Origin: a virus
Length of the DNA stretch: 22,162 nt
Direction: 5' to 3' (one strand)
Virus record (IMG/VR): IMGVR_UViG_3300027833_001292
Location: 1-22,162 of that record
The position numbers and the translations under genes were made by a program. Every line of letters begins with the position of its first letter. Within the stretch, counting starts at the first letter, position 1. The notes beneath the pieces are model-generated. The model worked only from the letters and a program-made list of their open reading frames with translations, did not search any database and was not told where the DNA came from. Below are positions 17,717 through 21,362 of the stretch, piece by piece.

Positions 17717-18199
17717 ATGAAAAATGAAGGAAAGCAGCTTTGGAAAAAGGTTAAGAAAATGGATCTAGGTAACCCTATAATAACAGCACTAGTTGGTCTA
17801 GTAATATTTTATATCGGCCTTAAAACATTCTCCGGCGGAATGAAATCTATGGGCAATATGGAGCATCTTAATTGGTTCCTTGGTAATCCCATATATATGT
17901 TCTTCGGTGGAATCATTATGACTCTACTGTGGCAATCATCATCTCTATCAACTACAGCTATTATTGCCTTAGTTGCTGCTGGTGCATTACCATTACCCGC
18001 AGCAATTGCTTGTGTTCTCGGAGCTAATATTGGTACGACAGGTACCATTTGGCTTGCTGGAATGCTTGTCTCAGATGGTATGCCTAAAGGAGATACTCTT
18101 AGAATCGCCTTAGCGCACACTGGAATGAATCTATTAATGGCATTAGCTTTGCTACCATTTGTAGGACGTATAGGCCAATTACTATTAAGAGTTGGCTAA
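17717..18199 (+). CDS. Half-size Na+/phosphate cotransporter-like membrane protein
   Basis: A 160-residue membrane protein with one Na/Pi-cotransporter repeat. The family signature QSSS is at residues 73-76 (LLWQSSSLSTTAIIALVAAGA), followed by GANIGTTGT at 102-110. About four to five hydrophobic segments are visible (near 21-36, 57-71, 78-92, 94-116 and 128-150). The usual bacterial NptA/YjbB-type proteins have two inverted QSSS repeats in 300 or more residues; only one is here, so a functional unit would have to be a dimer. Its role may be phosphate uptake during infection (inference). The ATG directly follows the preceding stop. It belongs to the late-type unit headed by the nuclease. Confidence 0.82.
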   Translation: MKNEGKQLWKKVKKMDLGNPIITALVGLVIFYIGLKTFSGGMKSMGNMEHLNWFLGNPIYMFFGGIIMTLLWQSSSLSTTAIIALVAAGALPLPAAIACVLGANIGTTGTIWLAGMLVSDGMPKGDTLRIALAHTGMNLLMALALLPFVGRIGQLLLRVG

Positions 18200-18201
18200 A
18201 A

Positions 18202-18393
18202 ATGGAAGCATCCTTCAAAGATAAATGCAGAATATTCTATATGGTAAAGGGTGGTTTAAAAAATACCAACGTTGCTACTATAGAAGACTGCTATGAAGGA
18301 TATTTTAAACGACTTTGGGGTAATCACGAAGCTACTTATAGAGAGATTGGCTTTGAGGAACACTATAAAGAATTTAGCGAATCGCTAAAATAA
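18202..18393 (+). CDS. Small unknown protein, 63 aa
   Basis: A 63-residue charged protein (starting MEASFKDKCRIFYMVKGG, ending FEEHYKEFSESLK), rich in aromatic and acidic residues, with no signal or membrane segment. I do not recognise it. It begins two bases after the transporter stop, with only a weak ribosome site, so translation is probably coupled. A short hairpin (18373-18389, TTTAGCG/CGCTAAA) covers its last codons, just before the tmRNA promoter. Confidence 0.55.
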   Translation: MEASFKDKCRIFYMVKGGLKNTNVATIEDCYEGYFKRLWGNHEATYREIGFEEHYKEFSESLK

Positions 18394-18396
18394 ATG

Positions 18397-18425
18397 TGTA
18401 CATTATGTCATATTTGTGGTATAAT
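18397..18425 (+). promoter_or_regulatory. Class I promoter of the tmRNA
   Basis: TGTACA at 18397-18402, 17 bp ending in TTTGTGG, and TATAAT at 18420-18425. The expected start is about 18432. It sits directly upstream of a late box. Confidence 0.85.
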
Positions 18426-18426
18426 G

Positions 18427-18434
18427 TATAAATA
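18427..18434 (+). promoter_or_regulatory. Late promoter box (TATAAATA) of the tmRNA
   Basis: Exact TATAAATA beginning two bases after the class I -10 box. The expected late start (about 18440) falls at the first base of the acceptor piece, G of GTAAAC. The tmRNA could thus be made both early and late. Confidence 0.7.
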
Positions 18435-18439
18435 ATATC

Positions 18440-18735
18440 GTAAACGTTGAAGCAACGTGAAATCGGATCGGACTCGGGGGCAGTACCCGACAGCTCCACC
18501 AAAAACATACTAGTGTCCAGTTAAGTTTGGAACACATCTGATAAAGTGGCTAGTATGTTTTTGATGGGGCTGAACTAGGATCGACGGACGGTGTAGTGAA
18601 GTGGAGTTTACCGGATGACTGCGTTATTGGTCAAAATTACTAAACGCAAACAATAACTTTGCACCTTCTGGATTCGCGCTAGCCGCGTAATCACAGGGAG
18701 CTGGCCACTTGCTTAGCAACAGAAAAGTGGCACAT
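18440..18735 (+). ncRNA. ssrA: Circularly permuted (two-piece) tmRNA
   Basis: The acceptor half comes first. T-stem TCGGG/CCCGA encloses the loop GGCAGTA, then acceptor CAGCTCC (18491-18497), A and encoded CCA (18499-18501). The coding half begins GGGGCTG (18566-18572), which pairs with CAGCTCC and gives the G3:U70 pair that marks alanine charging; GGATCGACGG follows as in tmRNA D-regions. GTAAAC (18440-18445) can pair with GTTTAC (18606-18611). The tag frame is at 18646-18690, and a GCCACTT/AAGTGGC hairpin (18704-18731) fits the last helix. The spacer holds a perfect 13-bp inverted repeat (18501-18513 with 18550-18562) that is presumably cut out. This order is typical of alphaproteobacteria. 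Ends are approximate. Confidence 0.93.
18646..18690 (+). other. tmRNA tag reading frame
   Basis: The resume codon GCA at 18646 opens ANNNFAPSGFALAA and ends with TAA at 18688-18690. The final ALAA matches the degron end recognised by ClpXP-type proteases, and the A-N-x-N-F start resembles alphaproteobacterial tags. Confidence 0.9.
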
Positions 18736-18790: not shown

Positions 18791-18819
18791 TGTACATTCC
18801 CGCAAAAGCGTGTTATAAT
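18791..18819 (+). promoter_or_regulatory. Class I promoter of DNA polymerase gene 43
   Basis: TGTACA at 18791-18796, 17 bp ending in GCGTGT, and TATAAT at 18814-18819. The expected start near 18826 leaves a leader of only about 20 nt with CGGAGA before the TTG start. Confidence 0.87.
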
Positions 18820-18845: not shown

Positions 18846-21362
18846 TTGGAATTCTATACTAACGTTGCTCGATATGGCAACTCAATCTTATATCGTGGCT
18901 ACAAGAACGGACATCGGTTTGAAGACCGTGTCAGGTTTGGCCCAACCCTATACCAAAAAGATATCAATGGAACAGCTACAGCCTTAGATGGCGAGCGTGT
19001 ATCCCCTATTCTATTTGACAAGATGAGTCAAGTCAAAGAACGTGAACAGCAATACGGCGGCATCGGTGCCAAAGAGATGTATGGCAACAAGAACTATGTT
19101 GTCCAGTTCCTACAAGAAAAGTTCCCAGACAATATTGAATTCGATCGTGACGTAATCAATGTAACAAGCATTGATATCGAAACTGCATCTGATGACGGCT
19201 TCCCAGAACCTCAACTCGCTGAGAAAGAAGTTACCGCCATTTGTATGAAAAACAATATCGATGGCATCTACTATGTGTGGAGTTGCATCGAATGGTCTAA
19301 ACAAGAAACCATCCTAAAGCATCTTAATGTTGTCTATGAACATTGCAAAGACGAGAATGAATTGCTAGTCAAGTTCATTGGTCACTGGTCATCTCCGATC
19401 TATTGTCCTGATGTTGTTACTGGATGGAATACTCGATTCTTTGATATTCCATACCTTGTCAATCGTATCGCAAAACTCTTCGGTGAAGATGTTGCCAAGC
19501 GTATGTCACCATGGGGCTTAATCAATGAGCGTCGCATTACTACTATGGGTCGTGAGCAACAGGCTTATGAAATCACTGGTATTGCACAGCTAGACTATCT
19601 TGAATTGTTCAAGAAGTTCGGTTACTCATATGGTCCACAAGAATCATACAAGCTTGATCACATTGCGCACGTCGTTCTAAATGAGCGTAAGCTTTCATAC
19701 GATGAGTATACTGACTTACATTCGTTGTACAAGAATGATCCACAGAAGTTCATTGACTATAACATCAAAGACGTTGAGCTGATAGATCGCCTTGAAGATA
19801 AGATGGGTTTGATTACCCTAGCTTTGACTATGGCTTACCGTGGCGGTGTTAACTACTCCGATACTCTTGGCACTACTGCGATATGGGATGCAATTCTATA
19901 TCGTGACTTGGCCAATCGTGGAGTTATCGTTCCTCCTAATGGCGAGAAGTTCAAAGCCGATTACCCTGGCGGTTATGTTAAACCACCTCAGGTTGGCATG
20001 CACGAATGGGTTACCTCATTCGATCTTAACTCACTATATCCTAACATCATTGTTCAATGGAATATGTCACCCGAGACTGTAGTCGAAGGTGAACGTTGCT
20101 CTATGAATCCTGATATTGCATTGGCCGAAGAGCATCGTAATTCTCATAGCGAGTATGCACTTGCTGCCAATGGCGTCTATTTCAAAAAGGAAAAGCAAGG
20201 TGTTCTTCCTAAGATCATTGTTGATTACTACAATGAGCGTAGTATCGTCAAGAAGAAGATGCTAGCTTCGCAACAAGAGAAAGAGAACACTGACAAGAGT
20301 AATGAGGTAGAGATCATTCGCATTGAGCGTGACATATCTCGTTATGAGAACCAGCAAATGGCCATTAAGATCTTGCTTAACTCTCTATATGGTGCACTCG
20401 GTAACAAGTACTTCCGTTACTTTGATCTACGTGTTGCCGAGGGTATTACTCTCACTGGTCAAACTGTTATTCGCTGGGCTGAGAAGTCAGTTAACCAGTT
20501 TATGAATAAGGTCTGTGAGACCAAAGAGACTGATTATGTTATCGCTATTGATACTGATTCGGTCTATGTGAATTTCGGTGATCTGGTTAAGAAGTATGTT
20601 AAACCAGGCACTGAGGTTGCAACCATCGATAAGATTTGTGAAGAGCAGTTCCTTCCAATGCTCGAGAAGTCTTACGCTCGGTTGTATGAAATGTTCGATT
20701 GTTATACTCCTCGCATGGTTATGGCACGTGAAGCAATTGCAGATCGTGGCATATGGACTGCTAAGAAGCGTTACATATTGAATGTTCACAACAATGAAGG
20801 TGTACAATACGCAGAGCCAAAGCTCAAGATCATGGGCATCGAAGCTATTAAGTCGTCTACACCTTCCGCTTGTCGTGATGCACTAAAAGCCTTGTTCAAA
20901 GTTATCGTTAACGGTGATGAAGAGCAAGTACAAAAAGCAATCGCAACCTTTAAGAAGTACTTCAGTACGCTGTCTCCTGAGCAGGTATCTTTCCCTCGTG
21001 GTGTAAATGATATCACTAAGTGGGCACGTAAGCGTGAGGGCATCTATGCAAAAGGTACTCCCATACACGTACGTGGGGCATTGCTATATAATCATCATAT
21101 CAAGGCATTAGGTCTGCAGAAGAAGCATGAGCTAATTCAAAATGGTGAGAAGATCAAGTTCTGTTACCTTAAGTTACCAAATAGTATTCGTGAGAATGTC
21201 ATATCATTCCCGACATACCTGGCACCTGAGCTGCAGCTTGATAAGTATATTGACTATAACAAGCAATTCGAAAAGACCTTCCTAGATCCAATTATACCAA
21301 TCTTGGATGCCATTGGCTGGTCAGCTGAACCTAGGATTTCATTAGAGGATTTTTTTGTATGA
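18846..21362 (+). CDS. 43: Family B DNA polymerase gp43 (TTG start)
   Basis: An 838-residue replicative polymerase with 3'-5' proofreading, a little shorter than T4/RB69 gp43 (about 900). Exo I DIET places D110 and E112, close to RB69 D114 and E116. Exo II is [14 protein letters not shown] and Exo [15 protein letters not shown]. Polymerase motif A is [10 protein letters not shown], motif [14 protein letters not shown], and motif C IDTDSVY with both catalytic aspartates. The N-terminus [11 protein letters not shown] matches gp43 starts, and no ATG exists nearby, so TTG at 18846 behind CGGAGA is the likely start. The C-terminus ends ISLEDFFV, a short hydrophobic clamp-binding tail as in T4. It overlaps the next gene by 4 nt. 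Confidence 0.96.

Follow-up and report, generated by a model that had tools for sequence, protein, structure and literature searches.

A phage genome fragment whose tmRNA gene has its halves in permuted order raises the questions of whether such a gene is intact, where it came from, and what lies in the segment between the halves. The fragment analysed here, called the window, is the 22,162-nt IMG/VR record IMGVR_UViG_3300027833_001292 over its whole length. An earlier note, made from the letters alone, had described a permuted tmRNA at 18440-18735; the intervening segment (IVS), which is the unusual part, was absent from that account.

Identity and anatomy of the tmRNA gene

ARAGORN made a single permuted tmRNA call in the window, with the tag ANNNFAPSGFALAA, and two Rfam covariance models, neither of which contains pseudoknots, matched the same locus. 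The alpha_tmRNA model (RF01849) scored 115 bits against a gathering cutoff of 50 (E 4e-31) over 18382-18734, covering model positions 1-355 of 355, and the tmRNA_permuted model (RF04321) matched at full length over 18440-18690 with 118.4 bits against a cutoff of 47. By direct reading, GGGGCTG at 18566-18572 pairs with CAGCTCC at 18491-18497 in 7 of 7 positions including G3:U70, and the alanine identity set is complete (G3:U70, A73, CCA, and an acceptor stem of 7 bp). The parts of the gene are as follows.

18440-18501, + strand: acceptor piece, with the GTAAAC helix strand (18440-18445), T-arm, CAGCTCC (18491-18497), discriminator A73 (18498) and CCA (18499-18501); from Rfam alignments and ARAGORN
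18502-18565, + strand: IVS of 64 nt, predicted to be removed by processing; a three-way-junction RNA (loops UUAAGU and AUCUGAUAAA) enclosed by the closing helix; from covariation
18566-18734, + strand: coding piece, with the acceptor 5' strand GGGGCTG, D-arm region, GTTTAC (18606-18611), tag reading frame and 3' terminal hairpin GCCACTT...AAGTGGC; from the full-length RF01849 match and the fold
18646-18690, + strand: tag reading frame ANNNFAPSGFALAA, codons 18646-18687 and TAA at 18688-18690; from ARAGORN

The two pieces are joined by pairing of GTAAAC with GTTTAC. The tag frame is open, with a resume codon and C-terminal hydrophobic and alanine residues ending in ALAA, and tag variants occur in relatives. 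No group I intron was matched in the window tmRNA by Rfam at gathering cutoffs, and the T-loop is uninterrupted. A chance match was excluded because of the Rfam scores and the homologues found at the same place in contigs L002, L049, L007, L008, and L016, two of which (L002 and L049) share the tag ANNNFAPSGFALAA, so that the conserved tag expected under the earlier note's reading was recovered in related phages. The coordinates, the order of the halves and the acceptor stem given there were likewise borne out, as was the assignment to the alpha type in a T4-like genome. On sequence grounds we regard the window tmRNA as an intact, phage-adapted, alpha-type two-piece form, ordinary for marine phages.

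This anatomy bears on the proposal, made for a tag-less RNA of mycobacteriophage DS6A, that such a phage RNA is a decoy that competes with the host tmRNA for SmpB and thereby blocks tagging. An RNA consisting only of the tRNA-like domain does inhibit tmRNA, according to work cited in a passage of PMC4131195, but in the window the tag frame is intact and ends in ALAA, the resume codon is conserved and the coding piece is full, and we consider a decoy role very unlikely.

Genomic setting and promoters

The window comes from a T4-like phage, a virus of marine-type bacteria, and its genes include those for a DNA helicase, a late sigma factor, gp46/47, a CobS-like protein, gp45, the clamp loader, a regA-type repressor, and gp43. 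The tmRNA gene is flanked upstream by a Na/Pi-cotransporter-like gene and a small ORF and downstream by the gene for gp43.

17717-18199, + strand: Na+/Pi-cotransporter-like gene of partial length, 160 aa (PF02690, 60.4 bits)
18397-18425, + strand: phage promoter upstream of the tmRNA, TGTACA-N17-TATAAT, matching 10 of 12 consensus bases, its -10 preceded by TG in the extended form TGTGG
18791-18819, + strand: another copy of the phage promoter, preceding gp43 (motif match)
18846-21362, + strand: DNA polymerase gp43 (phrog_262, 1021.7 bits)

The window has 11 matches to the motif TGTACA-N15..19-TATAAT, for which shuffles predict 0.08, and the motif also stands upstream of the tmRNA in L002, L049, and L007. 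Since copies of it are located just upstream of both the tmRNA and gp43, transcription of the tmRNA probably starts at a promoter of its own. The 11 near-identical promoters (1649-21812) are on the + strand in 10 cases, are often intergenic and mostly have TGTGG or TGTG before the -10; the same promoter precedes gp43 in relatives such as L002, L004-L008, L011, and L039.

The order nuclease gene, tmRNA, gp43 is common to L002, L049, L007, L008, and L016, and no tmRNA is present at the gp43 site in the other close gp43 relatives, L003-L006, a pattern that points to inheritance within a subclade and gain or loss across the wider group. The cotransporter-like gene is also directly before the tmRNA in L007 (93% identical), L008, and L016 and is absent from that place in L002 and L049. 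SmpB was not called among the window proteins tested.

Two-piece tmRNAs of phages and the origin of the gene

Two-piece tmRNAs are already known from phages. Buchholz et al. (2022; PMC9004378) described one in the Methylophilales phage Melnitz and counted 53 in phages, 50 of them aquatic; they proposed that these derive from alphaproteobacteria and take part in rescue or in proteolysis directed by the tag. The window, with a permuted tmRNA on a T4-like genome, has what defines their group. Under strict pairing rules we found 256 permuted tmRNA loci in IMG/VR, a count that includes a few repeats of one contig or records from outside IMG/VR, and 201 after removal of duplicates. The earlier note's statement that the known phage tmRNAs are one-piece is contradicted by these 53 published cases and the hundreds in IMG/VR. 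Melnitz, like the window, is a T4-like (Kyanoviridae) marine phage with an alpha-type permuted tmRNA near replication genes, and it resembles the window's sister phages L002 and L049 in having a related ORF in the IVS. Unlike the window, it carries the tag ANDNYVPVDYALAA at another genomic place and a glutamine riboswitch that the window lacks, and its sequence gave no blastn match to the window tmRNA. Alphaproteobacterial ssrA (RF01849) shares with the window the order of halves, the T-arm, acceptor, resume region and 3' hairpin, and a tag of the type A-N-x-N...ALAA; the window differs from it in a longer and exchangeable IVS and in the tag ANNNFAPSGFALAA, which was found only in phage sequence.

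The tag belongs to a family, A[DN]N[FY]APSG[FY]ALAA, present in at least 120 viral contigs. When tags were compared with bacterial genomes, as the earlier note had suggested, the family pattern with F at position 5 matched once among 84,980 species represented by one genome each. The sole match, L202 (NHBR02000136.1), is a contig of a 'Muricauda' MAG. It carries a permuted tmRNA besides genes for T4-like clamp and clamp-loader proteins, and is likely a misbinned phage contig. In the viral contigs L155, L157, L162, L181, L187, and L198 the permuted tmRNA encodes an unusually long tag, of 18-31 residues.

The earlier note had proposed capture of the gene from an alphaproteobacterial host. As an old origin this agrees with our data, the alphaproteobacterial model being the best match, and the Melnitz tmRNA was placed with alphaproteobacteria by Buchholz et al. 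(2022). As a recent event involving the current host it is most improbable, given the number of viral contigs with this tag family, the single match among species genomes, itself a T4-like phage contig, and the presence of the gene at the same place in several related phages. Based on the spread of the tag and the phage nature of that single match, phages most likely passed the window tmRNA on by inheritance and by exchange with one another.

Exchange of the intervening segment between phages

A single tract spanning the IVS and the tmRNA sequence on either side of it is related to other phages than the rest of the gene.

18470-18585, + strand: exchanged cassette of 116 nt, 100% identical to the unrelated T4-like contigs L132, L419, and L428

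These three contigs encode a different tag, ANDNFAPEFALAA, and outside the tract L132 and the window share no nucleotide similarity. The remainder of the window tmRNA and the gp43 side are 90-95% identical to L002 and L049, and the upstream neighbours 80-91%. Those two contigs encode the window's tag but have a quite different, ORF-bearing IVS. Judged from these alignments, IVS content is exchanged between phages. The window is a metagenomic fragment and may be a chimeric assembly at the tmRNA; a second contig with the same junction was not found among the records searched, from which near-identical ones may be missing.

Structure of the intervening segment

Among 160 segments of at least 36 nt, the two ends of the IVS pair in one fixed register at 94% of positions, compared with 32-60% in other registers, and do so with many pair types. 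This indicates that a conserved helix continues the acceptor stem of the precursor; the helix is 10-13 bp long and strongly covarying, and the same end pairing was seen in some of the few bacterial examples.

The core of the window IVS was found in 25 viral contigs; in 22 it lies within a tmRNA gene, and the tags that these genes encode are diverse. It forms a three-way junction in which the loops UUAAGU and AUCUGAUAAA are invariant across all 25; 9 of its 20 pairs are changed on both sides, 99.0% of cells are paired, and the covariation score was reached by 0 of 500 shuffles. A search of Rfam with the window IVS returned no credible match, the miRNA matches being due to chance. This RNA also occurs in a decayed tmRNA of L414 (8014-8045), and in L423 and L424 it lies in a long hairpin outside any tmRNA. 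Many weak matches to its model (R1) in other IVSs were mostly ascribed to the general closing helix and were not counted as members; a match in L154 (48 bits, E 9e-9) stands apart from these.

Reading frames within the intervening segment

The window's own IVS contains no ORF. The IVSs of L002 and L049 each carry one of 27-29 codons with a Shine-Dalgarno sequence (SD), MIKRIKKFFYDWITKKELEAKVPKYLAGK and MIKKIITSYKNWLAKKESDVPKYLGAK respectively. Among IVS clusters of at least 90 nt, 23 of 62 contained an SD+ATG ORF 25 or more codons long, compared with 1 on the antisense strand and a mean of 1.8 (maximum 5) in 200 rounds of dinucleotide shuffles, this chance model covering the contigs retrieved by our searches. 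Seven ORF families recur across different contigs, with lengths of 27-77 codons among relatives.

Family B (63 codons; L216 and others) is DUF6356 (PF19883; 46.2 bits against a Pfam cutoff of 24.4, E 5e-12). Its pN/pS was 0.09-0.19 in all pairs but one, which had no amino-acid change, and such values of about 0.1 indicate strong purifying selection within the IVS. About 9 of its 49 viral loci are in a tmRNA IVS, most others being in ordinary operons. In L379 and L381 an acceptor half is followed by a DUF6356 ORF with no coding half directly behind, possibly a decayed or rearranged tmRNA. For family C, pN/pS was 0.12-0.31; neither B nor C gave a tblastn match in phage isolates. Family A (27-29 codons) was in the IVS at 9 of 15 loci and free-standing at 6, twice directly behind tRNA-like sequence. 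In L445 and L447 the family A microprotein gene lies directly 3' of an apparent tRNA 3' end (GTTCAAGTCC...GGCCA).

Cultured phages provided one case. The IVS of Melnitz is 142 nt long and contains an unannotated ORF (from Melnitz position 46096) starting MFKWLSKTRLVVITRDYFRERNRKADAKIPKYLSG, whose stop is reached inside the coding piece; it matched the family A profile with an E of 7e-4, above 1000 of 1000 shuffles of itself, and is not mentioned in the tmRNA section of PMC9004378. No convincing SD+ATG ORF was seen in the IVSs, 93-109 nt long, of isolates infecting Ruegeria, Rhodobacter, and Mesorhizobium. Searched by blastn against phage records, the window tmRNA matched only 43 nt in Sinorhizobium phage Phosso. 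Phosso (L204/L438) has an unannotated permuted tmRNA with a 410-nt IVS and the tag ANDNVSTKVALAA, which ARAGORN missed.

In the literature, the fullest tmRNA collection in print, a database of 97,179 sequences, reports one tRNA-Ala and one repetitive element inside an IVS, and protein-coding ORFs or conserved RNA modules are not named in the main-text passages on IVSs and inserts (PMC11915505). A search of the open-licence literature found no paper describing IVS ORFs, and an earlier report elsewhere is possible. An exchangeable, cargo-bearing IVS seems, from what we could compare, to be undescribed. Homing endonuclease genes sit in group I introns of tmRNA and, like the IVS ORFs, are protein genes in a removed segment of a tmRNA gene. 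The IVS ORFs differ from them in having only 27-77 codons, in matching no endonuclease family, and in a predicted removal by ordinary processing and not by splicing.

The simplest account of the IVS would be that an ordinary two-piece tmRNA contains neutral filler, its ORFs and hairpins being passengers without function. The mature tmRNA is independent of the IVS, many IVSs are short hairpins of 25-29 nt without an ORF, and no ORF was found in a small bacterial control of 9 plasmid-derived records with IVSs of 22-95 nt. Neutral filler is nevertheless unlikely in view of the low pN/pS of the DUF6356 family within the IVS, the confinement of the SD+ATG enrichment to the sense strand, and the invariant loops of the window-type RNA.

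The position of the ORFs suggests a further account, in which they act in cis. The 5' strand of the closing helix contains or adjoins their SD and start codon. In several ORFs the first stop is a TAG inside the coding piece, 13 nt beyond the cleavage site, so that RNase P cleavage would cut them. Translating ribosomes might then open the helix or meet the 3' end made by RNase P, and the state of translation or tmRNA activity would control maturation of the tmRNA or production of the peptide, as in arfA; for the ORFs that stop in the coding piece, we speculate that cleavage yields a nonstop message under such control. This cis account is quite improbable, because two ORF families are also free-standing, which argues that the product itself is what is kept, and most IVSs have no ORF and many ORFs end before the cleavage site.

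A proposed cargo slot in a two-piece tmRNA

The joint explanation that we prefer, with a probability of roughly 70%, is an intact two-piece tmRNA for ribosome rescue whose IVS loop serves as an exchangeable cargo slot. The phage promoter would give one precursor transcript, which host tRNA-processing enzymes would cut at CCA (18501/18502) and at G1 (18565/18566) into the acceptor and coding pieces, and the RNA would be charged with alanine through G3:U70. Together with host SmpB it would release ribosomes that have stalled on broken mRNAs in the infected cell, where host mRNAs are presumably being degraded, so that rescue, a role the earlier note also had in mind, is plausibly what the window tmRNA does. 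The stalled products would be tagged for proteolysis. ClpXP accepts ssrA tags ending in ALAA, and tags with this ending should suit the host enzyme.

The 10-13-bp helix would close a cargo loop, which holds a structured RNA in the window and small protein genes in relatives. The IVS, being removed, would be free to vary and to carry cargo, and the conserved tmRNA halves on both sides would offer homology for exchange; recombination within them could swap the cargo, leave the mature tmRNA unchanged and have the new cargo expressed together with the tmRNA.

We give somewhat better than even odds to the broader proposition that the IVS of phage permuted tmRNAs is a general cargo slot, that is, a protected, helix-closed loop of a strongly expressed RNA into which microprotein genes and structured RNAs are recombined. 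On this view, processing of the precursor would lead to release or translation of the cargo, and the halves would act as exchange anchors between unrelated phages. Because the RNA annotation masks them, gene callers overlook small ORFs that lie in a tmRNA gene. On our reading, these loci show that a functional RNA gene can have protein genes and structured RNAs nested in the part of it that is discarded, and they may offer a way to study how phages rapidly exchange modules at conserved RNA genes.
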